A stretch of DNA of 59,935 nt from Alphaproteobacteria bacterium (lineage in GTDB: Bacteria > Pseudomonadota > Alphaproteobacteria > Caulobacterales > Aquidulcibacteraceae): contig JAIXQA010000067.1 of assembly GCA_027485915.1 (NCBI GenBank), positions 1-59,935 on the forward strand, read 5' to 3'. Under the pieces are notes generated by a model that saw only the letters and a program-made list of their open reading frames with translations, had not been told where the DNA came from and searched no databases. Position numbers and translations under genes: made by a program. Shown here one piece after another: positions 34,433 through 44,875 of the stretch (position 1 is the first letter of the stretch; the number at the start of each line of letters is the position of its first letter).

Positions 34433-35101
34433 TTACTCGCCCAAAATGAACTTCACTTCGAGTGGGTAATCGTCAGCCACGTTCTCGCAATTCCGACGGG
34501 CGGGTTCGAAGCGCATACGACGCGCTTCACGCTCGACTGCCGATTCGAACACGCCAGGTGGGTTAGCCGAGGATACAATCACCCCAACAACCGAACCGGT
34601 CGCGTCGATTTGCAAGGTCGCCCGAACGCTACCTTCGGTCCCACGATCCACAGCGCGCTGCGGATAGGCCCGCTCCACGTTGAAGTCCCGCAGTTTGCGG
34701 GGGCCCTTTGCGCCCTCAGTGCACGAAGGCGGCGGGGGCGGAGGGGGTGGTGCCGGTGGTGGCGGTGGTGGAGCTGGCGGCTGATAATCCGTCAACGCTG
34801 GCGCAGGTGGTGGGGGCGCTTTGACCACAGTTTCGCGGATTTCTTCCACCGGAGGCGGTGGAATGTCCACGATCATTTTGGTTTGGCGCTCCACCAACGG
34901 CGGTGGCGGTGGCAGCTTTTCAGGCGGCGGCGGTGGTGGTGGCGGTGGTGGCGGAGCCTTCTTTTCCTTCTCCGCCTTCACCACATTGAGGTTGTCCAAG
35001 AAGTCCGTCACGATGTGCGGGCGCACTTTGGAAACGCCGTACAAGATACCCGACCAAAGTATGATCGAGATCAAGAGGAACAACATACGATATTTAGCCA
35101 T
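34433..35101 (-). CDS. tonB: TonB energy-transducing protein
   Basis: A 222-residue TonB. A short N-terminus and one membrane helix (about 6-24) precede a long periplasmic proline-rich spacer (about 49-132, in blocks of up to 11 prolines). The TonB C-terminal domain follows (about 138-222, with YPQRAVDRGTEGSVRATLQID). It carries proton-motive energy from ExbB/ExbD to outer-membrane receptors, of which three are encoded in this window. GGAGGG precedes the start. It is the last gene of the operon, 14 bases after the second exbD. Confidence 0.95.
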   Translation of the reverse strand: MAKYRMLFLLISIILWSGILYGVSKVRPHIVTDFLDNLNVVKAEKEKKAPPPPPPPPPPPEKLPPPPPLVERQTKMIVDIPPPPVEEIRETVVKAPPPPAPALTDYQPPAPPPPPPAPPPPPPPPSCTEGAKGPRKLRDFNVERAYPQRAVDRGTEGSVRATLQIDATGSVVGVIVSSANPPGVFESAVEREARRMRFEPARRNCENVADDYPLEVKFILGE

Positions 35102-35115
35102 ATCTGATTGCCCTC

Positions 35116-35598
35116 CTATCGCAACTGATCTTCGCCGATTGCATCTTCAGCAACCAGAGAAACTTTTTGGAAATTAGCCTCTTGCAGAATAGCCATGGTT
35201 TCCATCACCGACGCATATGGCAGGGTTTGATCCGCGCGCACCCGAACTGTTTCCAGCAGGCGGTTTGGAGAATCTGGCACATGGAAGGTGATCCGTTCCA
35301 ACACCTTGGCAGCCAAGACATCAGGTTCGGTCAACTGGGTATCCACAAAGATCTGCGGCACACCCGTCCCATCGTCGCGAATATCGACAACGGTCGGAGT
35401 CTTTGGCTTCTCTTGCTGCTTTTCCGGCGGCGGAGATGGCGGTGGAAGATCCACTTTCACGTCCGTTGTCGGGATGGGAGCTGCCACCATGAAAATGATC
35501 AGCAACACCAAGAGAATGTCGATGAACGGAACAATATTGGGTTCCGAACTCGGCTGCATGCCCTTGCCTCTGCCCCCTCCGGAGAGTTTAGCGCCCAT
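35116..35598 (-). CDS. exbD: ExbD/TolR biopolymer transport protein (second copy)
   Basis: A 160-residue ExbD. The single membrane helix contains the proton-carrying Asp27 (NIVPFIDILLVLLIIFMV). A Pro/Lys-rich linker and the periplasmic domain ending AEDAIGEDQLR follow. The N-terminus MGAKLSGGG is nearly identical to that of the adjacent ExbD, indicating duplication. GGGAG lies 10 bases upstream. The linker is longer and more proline-rich than in the first copy. Confidence 0.93.
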   Translation of the reverse strand: MGAKLSGGGRGKGMQPSSEPNIVPFIDILLVLLIIFMVAAPIPTTDVKVDLPPPSPPPEKQQEKPKTPTVVDIRDDGTGVPQIFVDTQLTEPDVLAAKVLERITFHVPDSPNRLLETVRVRADQTLPYASVMETMAILQEANFQKVSLVAEDAIGEDQLR

Positions 35599-35682
35599 GG
35601 TGCATTGCTCCCTTCAGGTTCAAAGTCTCGCAGAAGCAGACTTGGGCGGTATAATAATTCAACATGATTGTACCTCCCTAAC

Positions 35683-36162
35683 CTAGCGGCGTTTGTCTGC
35701 GCCAACGAGCGCAACTTTGTAGAAGCCTTCATCTTGAAGGCGGTTCATTGCGAAAACCACATTGCGGTATGGCGTTTCACCATCGGCGCGGACGTAAATC
35801 CGCTGGTCGATGATCTTAGCCAAGTCGCCGTTGAAGGTTGGGTTATCTTTGACAACGCCTTCAAAGGCTTTCTTCCCGAGTTGTGTTGTATCAACAACTT
35901 CGTCATTGCCAACAAAGTAGCCCACTTTTCCGCCCTTGTCTTGGATCGTGACATAGGTTGGCTTTGGTGGCCGCTTCGACGGCAAGACCTTGGAGTCTGG
36001 CAGCGTGACATTGATGTCCACTGAAGCAACCGGCGAAGCCACCATGAAGATGATCAACAGCACCAACATAACGTCCACAAACGGTACGATATTTGGTTCT
36101 GCGTTCACATCCAGCTGGCCTCGTTTGCCGCCGCTGCCGCCTCCGGCTAGTTTTGCACCCAT
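35683..36162 (-). CDS. exbD: ExbD/TolR biopolymer transport protein (first copy)
   Basis: A 159-residue ExbD with Asp30 in the membrane helix (NIVPFVDVMLVLLIIFMV) and a periplasmic domain ending in a basic tail. With ExbB it forms the proton channel that drives TonB. AGGAG precedes the ATG by eight bases. It is 27 bases after exbB and 84 before the second exbD, a typical ExbB-ExbD-ExbD-TonB order for receptor-rich Alphaproteobacteria. Confidence 0.94.
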   Translation of the reverse strand: MGAKLAGGGSGGKRGQLDVNAEPNIVPFVDVMLVLLIIFMVASPVASVDINVTLPDSKVLPSKRPPKPTYVTIQDKGGKVGYFVGNDEVVDTTQLGKKAFEGVVKDNPTFNGDLAKIIDQRIYVRADGETPYRNVVFAMNRLQDEGFYKVALVGADKRR

Positions 36163-36189
36163 GATCGGTCTCCTTTTCTAGAGCCCCGA

Positions 36190-37089
36190 TCAGCCCTGCT
36201 TGTCCATGTCGCGGGTAACCAGCGAGATGAAGTCGGCTTCAAAATCTTCCAGATAGCCACCAATGGTGCCGGTTTGCTTGGCCGAGAAGTTGTAGATCAA
36301 CACGGCTGGGATAGCAGCCACGAGGCCTGCAGCAGTTGCGAACAGCGCTTCAGCGATACCAGGTGCCACAACGGCCAGCGAGGTGGTTTGGGTGTTTGCG
36401 ATAGCGATGAACGAGTTCATGATACCCCAAACCGTACCGAACAAACCGATGAACGGTGCGTTCGAACCAATCGAAGCCAAGAAGGTCATGTTGGACCCGA
36501 GCTCTTCAATGCCCTTGTTTTGCTCTGCGGTCATGGCTGCACGGATACGCTCCAACAAGTCACCACGTGCATCGCGGTTATTATAGAGGCCAGCTTCCTT
36601 CGCCTTTTGCAACTCACCATAGCCAGCAGCAAACATCTTTTTGGCAAAGCCGTCAGGTTGCTTCGCGAGCGCTTGGGCGGCTTCTTCTGGGGACTTTGCT
36701 TTCTTGTAAGCGGCAACGAACTCAACAGTGCGCTTCTTGTTGCCGCGCATCACGATGATCTTTTCGAACATCAGGGCGATGGCGTACACGGCGCAAAGCA
36801 ACAAGATGACCAAAACGACCTTCGACACGAATGGCGAGGCAGCGATCATGTCCATCAAGGTGATGTTTTGTTGACCGGCGTTCTTGGCAGCTTCTGCAGC
36901 AGCAGCAGCGGCTTCAGCGGCACTTGGTGCAGCGGGTGCAGCAGTTGCAGCAGTTGCAGCAGCATCAGCGACAGCATTCACTGACTCAACAACAGCATTC
37001 GTAGTTTCAGCAGCAGCAGCAACAGTTGCGTCAGCGGCGGGGGTGGCAGCGGTGTCAGCAGCACCGGCGGCTTGCAGAAGAGCAAACAT
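36190..37089 (-). CDS. exbB: ExbB/TolQ/MotA family proton channel protein
   Basis: A 299-residue ExbB with an unusual alanine-rich N-terminal extension (about residues 9-71, mostly Ala, Glu, Val and Asn). A first membrane helix (about 88-108) and the MotA/TolQ domain follow (about 140-290, with [15 protein letters not shown] and the two pore helices). The periplasmic extension is of unknown function. GGAGGA precedes the start. First gene of the TonB energising operon. Confidence 0.94.
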
Positions 37090-37299: not shown

Positions 37300-38151
37300 T
37301 CAGTTTTGTGCATAAAGATCTGGCCGTCTATCCCTGAAAAAGCCCCAGGCAGCTCGGTGTCTATCCAAAAATGTAAGATCAACGGTGCCGTGGGCAATGC
37401 CTTCCTCCGTGCGCGATAGATCAGCGATCAAATCTCCGCGATGATCCGCGATGAAGGATGACCCATAGAAGTGCTGATCATCGCCCAGCCCCTGTTCCAC
37501 ACCAATCCGATTAGCAGCAACCACTGGAATGACATTGCTGACAGCATGACCCTGCATGGCGCGTCGCCAAGGATCTCGCGTGTCGAGCGTGCCGTCATGT
37601 GGTTCTGACCCAATGGCAGTTGGGTAGAGCAGGACTTCAGCGCCGAGCAAAGCCATGGCACGAGCTGCTTCGGGATACCATTGATCCCAGCAAATGCCGA
37701 CACCAATTTTAGCGTAACGTGTGTTCCACACCTTGAAGCCGGTGTCGCCTGGCCGGAAATAATATTTTTCCTGATAGCCTGGACCATCGGGAATGTGACT
37801 CTTCCGGTACGTGCCCAAGACTGTGCCATCGGCATCGAGAATGACCACGCTATTATAATAACGTGGACCTTCACGCTCAAAGATAGACACGGGGATAACA
37901 ACGCCCAGTTCTGCTGCCACTGGCTGCAACTGCGCTACGCAAGGATGTTCGAACGCCGGATAGGCCGTAGCAAACCAGCGCTCGTCCTGCGTGGTGCAAA
38001 AATATGGCCCTTGGAACAATTCCGACGGCAGAATGATTTGGGCACCAGCAGCGGCAGCCTGACGGATCAGCACAATGGTGCGATCAATATTGTCTTGTAC
38101 ATCAGAACCATAACGGGTCTGGAGGGCGGCAAGGTTCACAAGGCGCGACAT
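37300..38151 (-). CDS. aguB: N-carbamoylputrescine amidase
   Basis: A 283-residue nitrilase-superfamily enzyme with the complete triad: Glu in ILPSELFQG, Lys in YRKSHIPDG and Cys in GVGICWDQWYP. The ICWDQWYPEAARA block is characteristic of N-carbamoylputrescine amidases, which release putrescine, CO2 and ammonia. Its ATG is one base after the stop of the agmatine deiminase gene, and AGGAG sits inside that gene's end, so the two are coupled. No signal peptide is present; it is cytoplasmic. Confidence 0.94.
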   Translation of the reverse strand: MSRLVNLAALQTRYGSDVQDNIDRTIVLIRQAAAAGAQIILPSELFQGPYFCTTQDERWFATAYPAFEHPCVAQLQPVAAELGVVIPVSIFEREGPRYYNSVVILDADGTVLGTYRKSHIPDGPGYQEKYYFRPGDTGFKVWNTRYAKIGVGICWDQWYPEAARAMALLGAEVLLYPTAIGSEPHDGTLDTRDPWRRAMQGHAVSNVIPVVAANRIGVEQGLGDDQHFYGSSFIADHRGDLIADLSRTEEGIAHGTVDLTFLDRHRAAWGFFRDRRPDLYAQN

Positions 38152-38152
38152 T

Positions 38153-39169
38153 TCAGGCTGGCTCCTGCTGAGTGATACAATGGAAACTGCCGCCACCGGT
38201 TAGGATGGCTGTGCTTTGAATGCCGACAACGCGGTGCATTGGGAAAGCAGCTGCCAAGCCGCGCAAGGCTGCGTCTGCGGAAGCTGTCCCATAGTGCGGC
38301 ATGACTACGCTCGCATTGCCAATTATGAAATTCATATGCGACGCAGGCACCGCCTCGCCATCCTCGTCCGTTACAAGGCCTGGCGAAGGGATTTGCACGA
38401 CCTCTAAAGCCCTGCCTGCCGCATCAGTCATGCTGCGTAGGTCTGCGGCAATCTGGTTTAAAACCTCATGGTTGGGGTCATCCTCGCCAAAGGGTGCCAT
38501 GCACATCACGCGACCCGGGCCGATGAAGCGTGCAATATTGTCGACATGGCCATCGGTGTGATCATTTGCCAAGCCATCGCCCAGCCATAACACTTTCTTT
38601 GCGCCTAAGGCTGTTTGTAAGTGGGATTCGGCCACAGCCTCGTTCCACCCAGGATTCCGATTTGGATTGAGTAGGCACTGTCTTGTGGTGAGGATTGTAC
38701 CATCGCCGTCATGGTCAACGGCTCCGCCTTCCAAGATGAAATCGGCGCGCTGGATCGGAGTTGCTGCGGCTTCGGCAACCCGATCGCCGACGCTGTCGTC
38801 AAACGACAAATCATATTTGCCGCCCCAGCCATTAAAGGCAAACCGTAAGGCGACGGCCCTGCCTTCACGCTTGGCAAAGATTGGGCCGGTGTCGCGCAGC
38901 CAAATGTCACCAAAGCCGCATGGGTGAACGCGGACCTGAGAAGGCAAGCTGGCGCGCGCGCTCGCAACCGCTTCTTCCCCATGGGCCAACACATGCATGA
39001 CGTCGCCAACTTTGCCAGCTGGCGTTGGGGCCGCAAGCGCGCAGATCATAGCCGCAACTTCGGCACGCGCCGATGCCAGGTCCTCCTGCCAGAGATCAGC
39101 GGCGGAGGGCCAGCACGTCCAAATCGCCTTGTGGGGACTCCATTCGGCCGGGATGATTAGGTGGGTCAC
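38153..39169 (-). CDS. aguA: Agmatine deiminase
   Basis: A 338-residue agmatine deiminase/peptidyl-arginine deiminase-fold enzyme. It converts agmatine to N-carbamoylputrescine. Active-site blocks are WLRDTGPIF, LEGGAVDHDGDG, DGHVDNIARF and the nucleophilic Cys in GGSFHCITQQEP near the C-terminus. The GTG at 39169 (reads as THLIIPAEW) has GAGGA eight bases upstream and aligns with the family N-terminus; a TTG at 39199 is less likely. Forms an operon with aguB. An arginine decarboxylase gene is not in the window. Confidence 0.94.
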   Translation of the reverse strand: MTHLIIPAEWSPHKAIWTCWPSAADLWQEDLASARAEVAAMICALAAPTPAGKVGDVMHVLAHGEEAVASARASLPSQVRVHPCGFGDIWLRDTGPIFAKREGRAVALRFAFNGWGGKYDLSFDDSVGDRVAEAAATPIQRADFILEGGAVDHDGDGTILTTRQCLLNPNRNPGWNEAVAESHLQTALGAKKVLWLGDGLANDHTDGHVDNIARFIGPGRVMCMAPFGEDDPNHEVLNQIAADLRSMTDAAGRALEVVQIPSPGLVTDEDGEAVPASHMNFIIGNASVVMPHYGTASADAALRGLAAAFPMHRVVGIQSTAILTGGGSFHCITQQEPA

Positions 39170-39253
39170 GATAAGGTTCCTCGAGGCGGCATCGGACAAG
39201 GATGCTCACATGGCCCTCTCCGACGCATGCCGCAAGATGGGCATCTGTGGAAC

Positions 39254-40837
39254 TTAGGCTTCATTAAGCGCTGGCTTGCCGCGCTCAACAATATAGCGTT
39301 TCAGCGGCTTAAAAGCCTGATCCCGCCGCCAAGTGGTCGGGGTGCTCATCAATCGAACGTCCATCATCTGAGGAGTCACATCGACAAGGCCATAGCCACG
39401 CACCCGATCATCTTGCCACTTGAGATGCGGATTGTCGGGGAAAAGCCGGTTCCAGCGATCGTAATTGAAGGACATGGTCGAGATCGAACCACCCACAAAC
39501 TCAACCGCGACCGTATCGCTTTCTGGCTTGGCGTAGTCCTGCTTAACATCATTGGCCCAGAAGCCGTGCATATCCCCGCCAATAACAATTGAGGACACAT
39601 CGCGGCGGCGGCGAGCCATGATGTCTATGATTTTTTGGCGGGCGGGCTCAAACCCACTCCAGCCGTCCGTAAAGGCGGTCGGGTCGCCTTGGCTATTCTT
39701 TTGAAACAAGGTCGAGAAGATCGTCGGCTGCACCAAGACCGACCACTTAAACGGTGCGCGCATAAAGTTCTCGGATACGAAGCGCTCTTGGCGCGCACCA
39801 AGAATAGTACGCGACGGATCCTGCAACTCAGCGCAAGTCGCTCGGCTCACGCTTTCTGCCTCCTGCCGACCGGGCGACAGGCACGCACCCTTGGAGCGAT
39901 ATTGCCGGGTGTCGAGCAAGGTGAAATCTAGAAGGTCGCCCCAGCCGCTTTGACCATAAATGCGCATCCGATTGACCGCGTCAAAGCGTGAGCGCGCGCG
40001 CAGAGGTTGGCTTTCAAAAAAGGCCTTGTAAGCATTGTATTTCCGTCTGGGAAAATCTTTAGCGGGATCCTGTCCGGGCAAAACCTTCCCGAAATCGGCC
40101 TGGTAATCATTAGCAACCTCATGATCATCCCAGATATAGAGCCAAGGGGCAGCAGCATGGGCAGCTTGTAGGTCTGGGTCCATTTTGTGGACCGCGTGAA
40201 TGAGGCGATAGTCGTTTAAACTAAAAGCATCTTCTACAGGCATCCGGCGCACGGCAGCACCATAGGAAACTTCATAGATATAGTCGCCCAGCGACAAAAT
40301 GACGTCTGGGTTCTGCTTAGCAAGGTCGCCGTAAGCGGTGAATAAACCTTGTTCGTAATGGGCGCAGGAATGCCAAGCAAAACGCATCTTGGCCAAAGGG
40401 GCACCAAATTCTGGCGTCGTGCGGGTACGGCCAATAGGCGATACGGCTAAGCCAACGCGGAACCGATAAAAATAAGGCCGATTCGGCTTCAAGCCGCCGA
40501 CTTCAACATGAACGCTGTGCGCATTGTCTGGTCGCGCCACCGCAAACTCACGCCGAACGACTTTGGTAAAAGCCTCATCTTCAGCGATTTCACATTGCAC
40601 ATCGACCAAACCGTCAATCGCGTAATCTGGGTCCAGCGGTTCTGGGGCCAAGCGCGTCCAAAGCACAAACCCGTCCTGTGTTGGATCACCCGATGCCACA
40701 CCCATCGTGAAAGGGTCAGAGATAAACTTTGGCGTTTGTGCCATGGCAGAACCACGCCACGGACTGCTTATCGAGGCCGCTGCTGCCCCCATTGCCCATG
40801 CATTTAAAAATGACCGCCGCTTTGGATCAAAGCTCAT
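39254..40837 (-). CDS. phoD: PhoD-type alkaline phosphatase/phosphodiesterase (Tat-exported)
   Basis: A 527-residue PhoD. The Tat signal has KRRSFLNAWAMG near the N-terminus and ends about residue 34. Metal-binding blocks typical of Fe/Ca PhoD enzymes are SLGDYIYE, YIWDDHEVANDYQ and VIGGDMHGFWAND. It releases phosphate from phosphoesters in the periplasm or outside the cell. The ATG at 40837 has AGAGG about ten bases upstream; 53 upstream codons in frame are not part of it. It follows a TonB-dependent receptor with a Pho-box-like sequence upstream, so phosphate-starvation control is expected. Confidence 0.94.
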   Translation of the reverse strand: MSFDPKRRSFLNAWAMGAAAASISSPWRGSAMAQTPKFISDPFTMGVASGDPTQDGFVLWTRLAPEPLDPDYAIDGLVDVQCEIAEDEAFTKVVRREFAVARPDNAHSVHVEVGGLKPNRPYFYRFRVGLAVSPIGRTRTTPEFGAPLAKMRFAWHSCAHYEQGLFTAYGDLAKQNPDVILSLGDYIYEVSYGAAVRRMPVEDAFSLNDYRLIHAVHKMDPDLQAAHAAAPWLYIWDDHEVANDYQADFGKVLPGQDPAKDFPRRKYNAYKAFFESQPLRARSRFDAVNRMRIYGQSGWGDLLDFTLLDTRQYRSKGACLSPGRQEAESVSRATCAELQDPSRTILGARQERFVSENFMRAPFKWSVLVQPTIFSTLFQKNSQGDPTAFTDGWSGFEPARQKIIDIMARRRRDVSSIVIGGDMHGFWANDVKQDYAKPESDTVAVEFVGGSISTMSFNYDRWNRLFPDNPHLKWQDDRVRGYGLVDVTPQMMDVRLMSTPTTWRRDQAFKPLKRYIVERGKPALNEA

Positions 40838-40903
40838 CAGACCAGACCTCTTGCTTGAGAAATGAGAGTTCTCCCACCCTAGTGCGAGAGACTTTAAACG
40901 CAA

Positions 40904-40933
40904 ATGGGGCGGCCCCCGAAAAGGCCGCCCCAT
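40904..40933 (-). terminator. Hairpin between the receptor and phoD genes
   Basis: ATGGGGCGGCC pairs perfectly with GGCCGCCCCAT around eight bases. On the minus strand only TTTG follows, so it may be a partial terminator lowering phoD expression relative to the receptor, or a 3'-end stabiliser. Confidence 0.65.
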
Positions 40934-40959
40934 AAAGGAAACGTTATAGCACTTTAAGC

Positions 40960-43900
40960 TTAGAACTCGTAACGAACGCCGACTTGGATCTGCCAACGCG
41001 AACGATCAACGTTACGTGTCTTTGGATTGGTCAAAATCGTCGATGGGTTGGTGATACGATAGCGGTTGCACAATACAGTGCCCGCATTGTTAGCTGCACC
41101 CGTCGCGTCGGCACAGGCCGCCGTATACAGCGTCTGTTGGTCACCATATTCTTCAACAACACCCCAGTCTTCGTTGATCATGTTCAACACGTTCTGGAAG
41201 TCGAAGGTCAAGAAGCCCTTATGACCTTCAAAGGCACCAGGAAGTTCCTGGCTTAGACGCATATCCAGCAAATGGATCTGATCGTTGGTGTTGAAGCCGC
41301 GTGGTGCGATCTGGCCTGTTGGCAAGCCAAATGTTTCAATCAAAGTCTTGACCGAATTGAAAGTTGCCAAGGAGTCGAAGGCAACTTTGCTGTCGCTGCT
41401 GACCAAAATAGCGCCCGACGACGAAGTGCTCGTCGTACCAGACAAATCAGGAATGTAAGCCAATTGGCCACCTTTGTTGACGCCAGTGATCGTTGAACGG
41501 CCGGAACCCGTGTTCATCAACCAGCTAAATGGACGGCCGGCACGCACGTCACCGAACAATTCAAGACGGGTCTCAAGATCCTTAAACGGCGTAGCGCGCC
41601 AGCCGAAGGAATATTTGAACACATTCTCAATCTCTTCTTGGCCACGACCCGTGACTGGGTTGGCGGGGTCAAGCGCAGACAAGGAACCGCCGTAAAGCGA
41701 GCTAGCCGTCGAACTAAAGCGGCCCGTGCTGTTCAATTCGTTGATGTTTTGCAGGGTGTAGGACAGGGCCCAGTTAATGCCGAAGTCATAAGACTTGCTG
41801 GCAGAGATTGCGGCGATGAACGCATCACCCAAATCACCATCAGGATTGAAGAGTTGGATGTCACGGTTCGAGCCACCGACAGCGGCGGTCGAATTAATCA
41901 CGGTCCCTGCAACAGCTGTGCGAGCTGCGGTCGGAATTGCATCGTAACGCTTACGACCGTCAGGTGTCAGCGCTTGTTGGCCGTTAATGATCAGCGGCGT
42001 GGCGCGCAAATCGCGGAAGGCATAGCCTGTATGAACTTGGGTATAAACCAAGTCTAAACCGAGGTTCAAACCAAAGGCTTCGCCGGTGACGGCCAAGTTT
42101 GCTTTCCACTCCGACGGGATGTCCAAATTGGGATCGATCGAGTTCGTTTCCGCAGTTGGGGATGGTGTCACACCGCCGAGCAATGCCAGCACTTGGGCTG
42201 GCACCGAGCGGCCAAAGTTCGCACCAACAAGATTGTCCAGAGCAAGCGAGCCTACACCTGCCGGGAGCGTTGTCCCACCCGTTTCAGTGAAGCCTGTCGC
42301 AGTACGCTGAATATCAACACCAACGGTCAAGATACCGGTGTTGGAGAACGAGTTTGACAGGAACACATCAGGAAGACCACCCGAGAACAAACCAACGCCG
42401 CCCGAAACACGGATATCGGCTGGTGCATTCCAATTAAAGCTGACACGTGGCATCACAATGGACAGGCCATCATAAGTCGCCCCGTTCGAGAAGCCATAGC
42501 GGTTGGTGAAGTTGGCGTTGGCTGCTGGTGCACCATCGACAGTATAGCTTTCCACACGCAGACCACCGGTCAAGCGGAAATCATCGGTAACTGACCAAGT
42601 ATCTTGGAGATAGCCAGACAAGATCTGATACGTGAACTCTGCGGCCGCTTTGTCTGGGTTACCAGATGGATTGTTTGTGTACTGCAAGCGGTTGGCGCGA
42701 CCTGCTTGGAAGTCCGCCACCGAGTCAAAGTAGTAGGTACCGTCAGAGTTTGGCACGAACAGGTTGAAAATATCACGCTCTTGCCATTGCACACCGGCCT
42801 TCAATTGGTGATTGCCCAAACGATAGCGGGCCTCGAACTGGCCTTGCGTGTTGGTGGTCGCCAAGAAGTTGGCATGACGGAATTGGTCTGGACCAAAGCG
42901 AACCACGCCGCGGGCCTGACCGGTAGAGGAAGCGCAGGTAATCAGCGGCTGGCTGCCGGTTGCGTCGAGCGAAGTGAGTGTCGAGCAGACTGTAATATCG
43001 GCGAACTCTTGGCCGCTCGGTGGCTGCTGCAGACGGACGTAATCGCGATAGCTGATGCGGGCTTCAGTTTGGAATTTGTCATTCCAGTCCGAGTTTAACT
43101 GTAACGAGTAAGTCTCGTCTTGCTCGCCCGTGAAGTACCACTGGGAATCCAGAGACGCAGTTGTTGCGCCTAAGTTGGTGAAGTTGAAGACAGTCGATTC
43201 AGCATTGCGGTAGGTAAACGATGCGCGATGCTTATCGGTGATATTCCAATCGATACGAGCCGAATATTTTTCATCAAGGATCGGCTTATTGGTTGGGATA
43301 GAACCCACAGCGAAAGTCGACCGGTAGGTGTTTGCAAACACGTTGGTTACTGCCGAAATGTCGGCCGTGGTCATCGGTGTACCCAACGGGCCAACGATCG
43401 TGTTGCCAAACTGGCCACCGTCAATCGGGCCGCGGTTTGTTACGTCAACCGACTCATATGTTTCATACGACAAGGCGTAGAACAATTTATCTTTGATGAT
43501 AGGGCCGCGAAGCGTTGCGCCATAATTGGTTTGTTCGACGACGTTCGAAACAGTGGTGTTTTTGATCCGTGTACCGGTCAATTTGTCATCGAGGAAGTTC
43601 GCGAAAACCGAACCGCCCAATTCGTTGTCGCCAGAGCGCAATACGATGTCGATTGCGCCACCCAAGAAGCCGCCGTTACGAACGTCAAATGGAGCGGGAG
43701 TTACATTGAACTGTGACACCGCGTCCAATGAGATTGGACCACGACGTGTTGGGAGACCACCGGTGTTCAAGCCGAAGTCATCTTGTGCGGCCACGCCGTC
43801 AATGGTGATGCGGTTGGTACGTGGGTTAGAGCCGGCGATGGAGATACCGCCGTCGCCTACAGTGTTCTGGGTAACCAATGGGGACTGACGGGCCAATTCG

Positions 43901-44376
43901 CGAATATCGCGACCTGGGGTCACGAGGCCGTCGATCTTGTCGCGGCGGAGACCGGTTGCGGTGCCATCAACGCGGTTACGACCAACTGCGGTTGCGCGAA
44001 CGACAATTCGTTCAACTTCTTTATCTGCAGGAACAAGGTTCAAAGCGAGGCTGAATGGCTCAGCAACCGTCAAAAACAAGTCATTGACGACAGTTGGTTC
44101 GTAGGTCGATGCGGTGACTTCGACAGTGTATGGGCCACCTGCGCGAAGACCAGATGCGGAGAACTGACCAGTAGAATCAGTCGTTGCGCGTGCGCGCGAA
44201 CCTGATGGGGTGTGGATGATCGTGACTTCTGCGCCCGTGACAGGCGCCCCCGACGCAGCGATCTGGCCCCGGATTGTTCCGGTGGTTTCTTGGGCATAGA
44301 CTGCAACTGGTGCAACCAGTGCGAAGCCCAATGCGGTCAGCGCAGTGGTGCGAGCCAAACGATTTAAAATTGACAT
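40960..44376 (-). CDS. TonB-dependent receptor, Oar-like, with N-terminal carboxypeptidase-regulatory domain
   Basis: An 1138-residue outer-membrane receptor. A signal peptide (cleavage after YA28) is followed by an Ig-like carboxypeptidase-regulatory domain (about 30-115; TGTIRGQIAASGAPVTGAEV), a TonB-box/plug region (about 120-235; DGGISIAGSNPRTNRITIDG) and a beta barrel ending in Phe (QVGVRYEF). Oar-type receptors import large or unusual substrates. Its downstream neighbour is a secreted PhoD phosphatase and its upstream region holds a Pho-box match. A phosphorylated substrate is a reasonable guess. GGGGA lies before the ATG. Confidence 0.92.
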   Translation of the reverse strand: MSILNRLARTTALTALGFALVAPVAVYAQETTGTIRGQIAASGAPVTGAEVTIIHTPSGSRARATTDSTGQFSASGLRAGGPYTVEVTASTYEPTVVNDLFLTVAEPFSLALNLVPADKEVERIVVRATAVGRNRVDGTATGLRRDKIDGLVTPGRDIRELARQSPLVTQNTVGDGGISIAGSNPRTNRITIDGVAAQDDFGLNTGGLPTRRGPISLDAVSQFNVTPAPFDVRNGGFLGGAIDIVLRSGDNELGGSVFANFLDDKLTGTRIKNTTVSNVVEQTNYGATLRGPIIKDKLFYALSYETYESVDVTNRGPIDGGQFGNTIVGPLGTPMTTADISAVTNVFANTYRSTFAVGSIPTNKPILDEKYSARIDWNITDKHRASFTYRNAESTVFNFTNLGATTASLDSQWYFTGEQDETYSLQLNSDWNDKFQTEARISYRDYVRLQQPPSGQEFADITVCSTLTSLDATGSQPLITCASSTGQARGVVRFGPDQFRHANFLATTNTQGQFEARYRLGNHQLKAGVQWQERDIFNLFVPNSDGTYYFDSVADFQAGRANRLQYTNNPSGNPDKAAAEFTYQILSGYLQDTWSVTDDFRLTGGLRVESYTVDGAPAANANFTNRYGFSNGATYDGLSIVMPRVSFNWNAPADIRVSGGVGLFSGGLPDVFLSNSFSNTGILTVGVDIQRTATGFTETGGTTLPAGVGSLALDNLVGANFGRSVPAQVLALLGGVTPSPTAETNSIDPNLDIPSEWKANLAVTGEAFGLNLGLDLVYTQVHTGYAFRDLRATPLIINGQQALTPDGRKRYDAIPTAARTAVAGTVINSTAAVGGSNRDIQLFNPDGDLGDAFIAAISASKSYDFGINWALSYTLQNINELNSTGRFSSTASSLYGGSLSALDPANPVTGRGQEEIENVFKYSFGWRATPFKDLETRLELFGDVRAGRPFSWLMNTGSGRSTITGVNKGGQLAYIPDLSGTTSTSSSGAILVSSDSKVAFDSLATFNSVKTLIETFGLPTGQIAPRGFNTNDQIHLLDMRLSQELPGAFEGHKGFLTFDFQNVLNMINEDWGVVEEYGDQQTLYTAACADATGAANNAGTVLCNRYRITNPSTILTNPKTRNVDRSRWQIQVGVRYEF

Positions 44377-44477
44377 GAGTGGTCCCCTGAAAGTGATCCT
44401 GTTTGCGCATCATAGTGGGAGGCTGCGCGTAGAGTGGGCCACCTAGCCCGCTTGAGATACGCCTCTGCGACGTTTAT

Positions 44478-44495
44478 GTGACACTTCTATGACAG
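44478..44495 (-). promoter_or_regulatory. Pho box (PhoB-binding site) upstream of the Oar-like receptor
   Basis: Read on the minus strand the sequence is CTGTCATAGAAGTGTCAC, two seven-base TGTCA-type half-sites (CTGTCAT and GTGTCAC) separated by four bases. That is the 11-base spacing of the PhoB consensus, and it resembles the E. coli phoA box. It lies about 100 bases before the receptor start codon. A clear -10 at the ideal distance is not seen. Confidence 0.7.
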
Positions 44496-44722: not shown

Positions 44723-44875
44723 AAAAAAGCGGTGGAGCCATAGGCTCCACCGCAAGGCGATGCTCAGGGAGCGCCGGTCCAATCCAGCGCTTACGAAAAG
44801 CGCAATGAACCATTCCGGACACCAAAGCCGAGCCAAAGACCCGACTTGCCCTTACGTTAGCCCGTGGTGGTCCGA
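44723..44875 (-). ncRNA. Structured RNA candidate or 3' UTR downstream of msrA
   Basis: On the minus strand this stretch of about 150 nt folds into three clear stems: 44866-44874 with 44816-44823 (one bulge), GCGCTT-ACGAA-AAGCGC (44787-44803), and the terminator at 44729-44753. No coding sequence is supported. It resembles no RNA family I know. It may be an independent small RNA, or the long 3' UTR of msrA; I found no convincing promoter before it. Confidence 0.4.
44729..44753 (-). terminator. Intrinsic terminator (msrA transcript or small RNA)
   Basis: GCGGTGGAGCC and GGCTCCACCGC form a perfect 11-base stem with a three-base loop, and AAAAAA on its left supplies the U-run for minus-strand transcripts. 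It lies about 175 bases beyond the msrA stop codon. Confidence 0.85.

Follow-up and report, generated by a model that had tools for sequence, protein, structure and literature searches.

A Pho box, the gene of an Oar-like TonB-dependent receptor and the gene of a PhoD-type phosphatase follow one another on the minus strand of a 59,935-nucleotide stretch of DNA from a freshwater alphaproteobacterium (GenBank assembly GCA_027485915.1, contig JAIXQA010000067.1; the whole stretch is called the window below). The arrangement is best read as a PhoB-controlled locus for organophosphate scavenging with an exchangeable receptor, a reading that the comparison of sequences makes quite probable. It draws on the rank of the box among pst-like sites, on its conservation before receptor homologues and on the presence of two unrelated receptors at the same place in one genus. 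The main features are as follows.

44478..44495, minus strand: Pho (PhoB-type) box CTGTCATAGAAGTGTCAC, half-sites 44494–44490 and 44483–44479
44467..44484, minus strand: overlapping third half-site GTGTCACATAAACGTCGC
44377..44477, minus strand: leader from the box to the receptor ATG, left arm of the putative exchangeable segment
40960..44376, minus strand: Oar-like TonB-dependent receptor, 1138 amino acids, with CarboxypepD_reg and outer-membrane barrel domains
40904..40933, minus strand: GC-rich intercistronic stem-loop after the receptor stop codon and before PhoD, right arm of the putative exchangeable segment
39254..40837, minus strand: PhoD-type phosphatase, 527 amino acids, with a Tat-type (twin-arginine translocation) signal; PF09423 300 bits, PF16655 109 bits

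The consensus of a PhoB box is two TGTCA-type half-sites 11 bp apart. The 18-mer CTGTCATAGAAGTGTCAC, which a preliminary description of this DNA had named as such a box, was confirmed at 44478–44495 of the minus strand; it is present as a single copy in the genome, and its TGTCA half-sites are 11 bases apart. A third, weaker half-site, CGTCG (44472–44468), continues in register after these two, and the box lies 101 nucleotides (nt) before the receptor ATG at 44376. The bare half-site pattern is not significant by itself, because genome and window counts match chance: the exact TGTCA-N6-TGTCA pattern was found at six sites in the 3.3-Mb genome, about six being expected from base odds, and a search for the 18-mer allowing up to two mismatches gave one site in the window against 1.14 in shuffles. 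With at most one mismatch, 134 sites were counted in the genome versus 40 for the pattern read backwards. Two of the six exact sites stand in promoter position, namely the window box and one in the gap between a phoR-like gene and pstC, 5 kb before phoB; three others lie inside long open reading frames (ORFs; L035, L036, L038) and one is ambiguous (L040).

A scoring matrix was derived from stretches upstream of pstC in relatives, where a box with at most one mismatch was found at 16 of 30 loci. It was built from 11 distinct pst sites, six of them from the genus of the window; the pst row of the window's own genome was excluded to avoid circularity, and one retained site (G004) carries identical letters. 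With this matrix the box scored 27.0 bits, the top position on both strands of the whole window, followed by the overlapping third half-site (16.1 bits) and an unrelated site (14.8 bits). The latter, ATGTCACAGAATTGGCAC at 359–376 of the plus strand, is the second-best independent site and lies upstream of an ORF at 492–1811. The box before the genome's own pstC, CTGTCATCGAAGTGTCAT, differs from the window box at two of 18 positions, and that promoter likewise holds a second, overlapping box. The only PhoB gene over its cut-off (351 bits, cut-off 296.2) is located 5 kb past the pst box; the kinase encoded before pstC has PhoR as its best model (266.6 bits, under the cut-off of 334.2). The genome also encodes one other strong PhoD, two weak PhoD-like proteins and one PhoX, and no box with at most one mismatch was found in the stretches scanned for these phosphatases. 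That the box is a chance match was rejected as very improbable: the count of exact half-site pairs near base odds and the lack of an excess in the two-mismatch search of the window would fit it, and it is contradicted by the matrix rank and by a register and strand that are kept from family to family. The box is taken as significant because of its promoter position, its top rank with the pst matrix and its conservation before homologues, and control of the locus by PhoB is, as predicted from sequence, very likely.

At E ≤ 1e-60, 223 of the 298 genomes sampled from the order have a homologue of the receptor, and the box proved to be conserved upstream of such homologues; the lack of conservation that, by the preliminary description, would have spoken against it was not seen. 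A first set comprised 31 loci (the window, 29 homologue loci and the Arenimonas locus L034; L001, L032 and L033 were dropped as duplicates). A box with at most one mismatch was present within 300 nt in 18 of these and an exact box in eight; other spacings gave 0–2 loci, the opposite strand three, and 300 dinucleotide shuffles a mean of 0.25 (maximum 2). The second set of 103 loci, picked among the matches listed and thus made up of the stronger homologues, consisted of 100 chosen neighbourhoods spanning five families together with the window, L032 and L033, L034 being excluded. Here the box was found with at most one mismatch at 41 loci and exactly at 18, compared with 0–4 (exact, 0–1) for 14 other spacings and two for the opposite strand. 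With the pst matrix, 60 of 102 loci scored at least 10 bits upstream (one locus, with too short an upstream stretch, was omitted) versus one of 102 in a within-gene control stretch, whose base composition differs from that of the upstream stretches; the shuffles of the first set match the composition. The box recurs before receptor homologues in five families and persists down to about 30% receptor identity, the counts spanning related, non-independent genomes. Boxes of at least 10 bits were found at ten of the 11 loci with PhoD within 600 nt downstream, compared with 51 of the 92 others.

Within the genus, a PhoD of this type was identified in all nine genomes (86–100% identity), preceded by one of two receptors. 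The Oar-like receptor stands at the locus in four (G000, G002, G005 and G001, the last judged by its initial 264 nt, where the contig ends); the remaining five (G003, G004, G006, G007, G008) carry an unrelated receptor of about 850 amino acids, here called T2. BLASTP comparison of T2 with the Oar-like receptor gave none better than E 0.2 among the matches listed, and the T2 protein that was scanned (from G004) has a plug and a barrel and no CarboxypepD_reg domain by Pfam. At E ≤ 1e-30, T2 was found only in these five of the nine genomes, in one copy each and at the locus. T2 is bordered, as Oar is, by the genes of MsrA and a siderophore-type receptor at one end and by PhoD-AguA-AguB at the opposite end; the ExbB-ExbD-ExbD2-TonB genes follow in four of the five, and the stretch of the fifth (L239) ends before them. 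The box is letter-identical in six of nine genomes (G000, G001, G004, G005, G007, G008) and changed in G003 (26.4 bits), G006 (15.8 bits) and G002 (21.4 bits). In four pairs (G005–G004, G000–G008, G000–G004, G002–G004) gapped DNA similarity spans the box and the leader, breaks off about 12–35 nt ahead of the receptor ATG and returns at the last codons and stop of the receptor; outside the box and the hairpin, G003 and especially G006 have diverged further. PhoD remains 86–97% identical beside the receptor of the unrelated family. The coupling of the phosphatase to this particular receptor, as put forward in the preliminary description, was thus not borne out: PhoD is tied to the receptor's place, which is held by an unrelated receptor in five of nine genomes of the genus, and it accompanies the Oar-like receptor at just 11 of 103 loci.

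Upstream of the promoter, after MsrA, a terminator-like hairpin (GGTGGAGCC..GGCTCCACC, with a T run) was noted at 44729–44753 of the window; in several aligned congeners it occurs in tandem (two or more), directly before the Pho promoter.

Grouping the Oar genomes together was rejected by the unlinked pst locus (p value of the approximately unbiased test, p-AU, 4e-9 with eight genomes and 7e-4 with nine). Both flanks rejected it too, the upstream one at 2e-4 and the downstream one, with less force, at 0.015; the eight-genome trees are independent of G001. On the pst tree of nine genomes at least three changes of receptor type are needed, and, judged by these trees, receptor type does not track descent. 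No sign of a recent transfer of the window's own receptor was seen: its DNA identity to G005 (83.8%) and G002 (80.4%) is like that of other stretches. Between G002 and G005, however, the receptor is only 81.4% identical, against 90.0 and 89.3% for the flanks and 82.9% for pst. The receptor of L032 (CAMDDL010000008.1) is 88% identical to that of the window.

Genome G001 looks like a mosaic with a crossover in the leader. Compared with the T2 genome G004 it is 97–100% identical per 100-nt step up to and past the box, except for two steps at 86–87%, and its upstream flank is 97.4% identical. The receptor start is 98.1% identical to the G005 Oar gene over 264 nt, although G001 and G005 share 80.6% in pst, and the PhoD side is again nearer to G004 (88.7 versus 82.5% for G005). 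The switch lies in the leader, where the three genomes agree over about 65 nt. This pattern speaks against the alternative that an ancestral tandem (box, Oar, T2, PhoD) lost one or the other receptor in different lineages without any exchange, as does the finding of both receptors together in none of the nine genomes. Genus g13 of the family supplies the case for such loss: G025 has the Oar-like receptor only, G020 and G032 a second kind only, and G029 both in tandem, its second receptor being 41% identical to T2; this second receptor recurs before PhoD in G034, where an Oar piece lies at the end of another contig. At the G029 locus (L082), both receptors in tandem and an M23 peptidase precede PhoD. 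The tandem origin is considered possible and rather doubtful.

Receptor replacement is most likely to have proceeded by homologous recombination; that exchange by recombination took place is put at about even from these comparisons. The Pho-box leader and the intercistronic hairpin might form a docking slot in which recombination through both arms repeatedly swaps unrelated receptors, a proposal with equal chances of holding and failing.

The mechanism proposed for the locus would run as follows. In low phosphate, PhoB~P would bind the 11-bp-spaced half-sites and start transcription of the outer-membrane receptor gene. The hairpin past the receptor stop might allow partial run-on into phoD, or trim or stabilise the receptor message, so that less PhoD than receptor would be made. 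The receptor, which could be powered by ExbB-ExbD-ExbD2-TonB, whose genes lie a little further downstream, would import a scarce phosphorus ester into the periplasm. There PhoD, exported as its Tat-type signal would predict, would release phosphate for PstSCAB; the same box precedes the operon of the latter. The receptor gene, held between two conserved arms, could be replaced by that of an unrelated receptor, with promoter and phosphatase staying in place. That receptor and PhoD work together on a phosphorus ester is likely. Of the phosphate-starvation operon combining cleavage and import that had been suggested at the outset, the box, its position, its match to own and relatives' pst sites, phoB and the conservation were upheld; the fixed pairing of Oar and PhoD was not.

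A number of findings weigh against this reading. At 14 of the 30 pstC loci no box with at most one mismatch was present in the searched stretch, and the score upstream of 31 of 102 receptor homologues was under 8 bits. Weak boxes were also found at loci with phosphorus-related neighbours, namely at the PhoX locus (5.0 bits), at phosphonate loci (6.7 and 1.7 bits, the third having 14.5) and at the PhoD locus L128 (2.8 bits). In G001 the receptor sequence stops at a contig end after 264 nt, and the mosaic may have arisen in assembly, since the identity in the leader is a place where an assembler could misjoin two strains; the assembly consists of 310 contigs, and the remainder of neither receptor was found in it. 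The pattern in g13, including the G029 tandem, implies that part of the variation may be differential loss. AguA was found within 2.9 kb downstream of the receptor at 59 of 103 loci in four families, 92 of the 103 homologous receptors are without PhoD within 600 nt, and the hairpin could stop transcription ahead of PhoD. These last three points are taken up below.

The receptor comprises a signal peptide (assigned by reading), a CarboxypepD_reg domain (residues 34–113), a flexible stretch (120–131), a plug (about 144–240) and the barrel. The N-terminal extension matched PF13620 with 57.8 bits (cut-off 32.3), and the matches to PF25183 and PF00593 were likewise over cut-off; the plug was below cut-off by sequence (17.7 versus 23.9) and over it in one of three relatives scanned. 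An AlphaFold2 model built on a 59-sequence alignment had a mean predicted local distance difference test score (pLDDT) of 86.2 and a predicted template modelling score (pTM) of 0.83, with pLDDT below 50 only at residues 1–28 and 120–131; the latter stretch is a candidate Ton box in this model. The 50 best Foldseek matches listed were all TonB-dependent receptors, headed by the ferredoxin receptor FusA (4zgv, E 4.3e-29). As a clue to the ligand, the list of folds was discarded: it is mixed (siderophores, ferredoxin, copper, pyrroloquinoline quinone, B12 and others) and decides nothing. No sequence match up to E 1 was obtained in the search for the closest solved receptor. To our knowledge, few ligands of PhoB-controlled TonB-dependent receptors have been described.

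The phosphatase probably starts at ATG 40837 (KRRSFLNA) rather than at TTG 40996; from this ATG it reads MSFDPKRRSFLNAWAMG, with a twin-arginine signal by reading, and the gap to the receptor gene is 122 nt. It aligned with PhoD of Bacillus subtilis (2yeq) over query residues 36–497 (E 1.5e-97), and the GDYIYE, WDDHEV and GD-H stretches, which hold the active-site motifs with their metal-binding letters, line up. The B. subtilis enzyme, alike in these stretches, is that of a Gram-positive organism and has no receptor. Against the NCBIfam PhoD equivalog model NF058638 the score was 405.5, below the curated cut-off of 1000. Of the earlier claim that a secreted, Tat-exported PhoD follows the receptor, gene order, PhoD domains and Tat-type signal were found as described; 'secreted' is to be read as bearing such a signal, not as located outside the cell.

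Between the two genes, the stem-loop had a folding z of −2.81 and was visible in all eight aligned genomes. Across seven sequences 97.4% of cells were paired, and two pairs change on both sides, which was equalled in 16 of 500 shuffles. The T tract after the stem is poor and interrupted, so that the hairpin may attenuate or stabilise instead of ending the transcript; because this conserved hairpin lies between the genes, full co-transcription of receptor and PhoD is uncertain. Upstream of PhoD in the window, the best score within 1.5 kb was 7.3 bits, that is, no strong box of its own. Box-like sites stand directly before PhoD at L236 (14.6 bits, −161) and L221 (11.4 bits, −334); in some relatives, Pho control may therefore act on PhoD directly, which for these two loci goes against the proposed mechanism. 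These sites, the conserved stem-loop with its compensatory changes and the differing neighbours in other lineages would suit a simpler situation, in which the box drives the receptor alone, serving a different ligand, and transcription ends at the hairpin, PhoD being expressed separately. That situation is unlikely, given the interrupted T tract and a phosphatase that, with no strong box within 1.5 kb in the window, yet stays behind a Pho-boxed receptor of either type.

Downstream of PhoD the following genes were identified, so that the order on the minus strand is receptor, PhoD, AguA, AguB, ExbB, ExbD, ExbD2, TonB.

38153..39199, minus strand: agmatine deiminase-like protein (AguA), TIGR03380 264.9, under the cut-off of 381.8
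37300..38196, minus strand: N-carbamoylputrescine amidase (AguB), NCBIfam 450.6, over the cut-off of 410.25
36190..37089, minus strand: ExbB/TolQ-type proton channel protein, by family match
35683..36162, minus strand: ExbD/TolR-type protein, by family match
35116..35598, minus strand: second ExbD-like protein (ExbD2), 38–41% identity to the position of the first ExbD in relatives
34433..35101, minus strand: TonB, C-terminal domain over cut-off

No match to SusD families was found in eight ORFs scanned between 35.7 and 48.3 kb. In composition, the ExbB-ExbD-ExbD2-TonB genes (34433–37089) correspond to the Ton-Oar set of Myxococcus (PMC11658791).

Neighbours were counted over the 103 loci of the second set, the counts being lower bounds because some stretches stop at contig ends. 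The 11 loci with PhoD within 600 nt downstream are the window, L032, L033, L071 and L072, and, in family f4, L115, L121, L122, L125, L128 and L129; as the fixed partner of the receptor, PhoD was rejected on this count. ExbB lies downstream at five loci, all with PhoD (the window, L032, L033, L071, L072). Other phosphorus-linked neighbours were PhoX (one locus), a phosphonate ATP-binding cassette (ABC) transporter (three) and PstS in the neighbourhood (ten). At L112, L123 and L127 the receptor is followed by a PhnC-like ABC ATPase and a phosphonate-binding/permease fusion protein, near a type II secretion secretin gene. AMP nucleosidase, uridine kinase and NupC were found near the receptor at five loci in four genera of f4, three of which also have PhoD. 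At these loci (L113, L115, L124, L125, L129) AMP nucleosidase is encoded downstream, uridine kinase divergently and NupC divergently or downstream; all five boxes are strong (15.1 to 24.9 bits). At L104, with adenosine deaminase, the box score was −2.5. Because of the nucleoside-salvage neighbours in this one family, nucleotides or nucleic-acid fragments may be offered as a first guess at the ligand, with which the AguA-AguB pair does not fit.

Seen from PhoD, the association is closer. At 27 of the 30 best PhoD loci, the gene immediately before PhoD, in the same orientation, encodes a TonB-dependent receptor: in f1, five are Oar-like and seven of the other kind, and in f4 all 15 match the Oar-like set. 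Two further loci (G029, G034) have a receptor of the other kind and then an M23 peptidase, the Oar-like receptor preceding the other in G029; the last (G001) is at a contig end.

The AguA-AguB pair (agmatine to putrescine) behind the receptor is accompanied by a divergent PMT_2 glycosyltransferase gene at 43 of 103 loci. The recurrence of AguA might mean that the receptor belongs with AguA-AguB, that PhoD was inserted between them, as its position between receptor and AguA in the window, L121, L122 and L128 would allow, and that phosphate control serves polyamine supply. This is improbable: in f5 no AguA was found within 2.9 kb at any of 15 loci (four have it at 3.9–4.6 kb) though nine have a box of at least 10 bits, and part of f4 has nucleoside or phosphonate genes there instead.

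Similarly small is the probability that the Oar-like receptor exports PhoD instead of importing a substrate. Adjacency, the Tat-type signal and the combination of PF13620 extension, plug and barrel with nearby TonB-ExbB-ExbD-ExbD2 genes, as in the Myxococcus Ton-Oar set (passages of PMC6434023 and PMC11658791), would agree with export; against it, PhoD keeps 86–97% identity beside a receptor of an unrelated family, and 92 of 103 Oar-like homologues have no PhoD within 600 nt, as given above.

The locus, as read here, is of a kind already known, since PhoB-controlled receptors in Caulobacter and low-phosphate receptor–phosphatase clusters in Flavobacterium are described in excerpts of PMC11208175 and PMC8115612. 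According to the former, the PhoB regulon of C. crescentus likewise includes various TonB-dependent receptors, phosphatases and PstSCAB, and its authors suggest import of phosphate-containing compounds; the portions used here show no receptor–PhoD locus, box sequence or receptor exchange. Aquidulcibacter has been placed in the Caulobacteraceae in a published abstract. In the Flavobacterium Pus systems (PMC8115612, in part), TonB-dependent and SusC-like receptors, several with PF13715, are induced by low phosphate, and PusCD genes adjoin those of phosphomono- and diesterases, phosphonate genes and inner-membrane organophosphate transporters in clusters that all differ; these are SusCD pairs of Bacteroidetes, whereas the window has an Oar-type receptor and no SusD among the neighbours scanned. 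The Oar/PopC system of Myxococcus xanthus shares PF13620, plug and barrel with the window receptor, and exbB1 and exbD1 adjoin oar in a set with ExbD2 and TonB1 (PMC6434023, PMC11658791, each in part). Its reported role is protease secretion on starvation (PMC6434023), in contrast to the phosphate box and phosphatase seen here.

An organophosphate hydrolase of sphingomonads is, by the sections of PMC7142613 consulted, a twin-arginine-targeted phosphoester hydrolase that co-purifies with parts of the TonB complex and supplies phosphate; it is a phosphotriesterase of other hosts, and those sections mention no Pho box. In C. crescentus, ElpS/CC0171 represents protein secretion under phosphate starvation with a TonB-dependent receptor gene adjacent; a lipoprotein and type II secretion are involved there, and the neighbouring receptor is reported as constitutive (PMC2996285, in part). 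In the related literature found, there was no account of box conservation before the Oar-type family, of its changing neighbours or of a receptor slot; no search aimed specifically at receptor exchange was made.

By its conserved site, the locus would link to phosphate starvation a receptor family that is encoded across the order (in 223 of the 298 genomes sampled), and receptor neighbours such as the nucleoside-salvage cluster of f4 may serve as clues to the ligand. Two unrelated receptors behind the same promoter and before the same phosphatase amount to a natural experiment, in which both should serve one enzyme under one stress. If the exchange is real, the cell surface could be re-tooled in one step without rewiring, either for a new organophosphate or for escape from phages or bacteriocins that use the old receptor.

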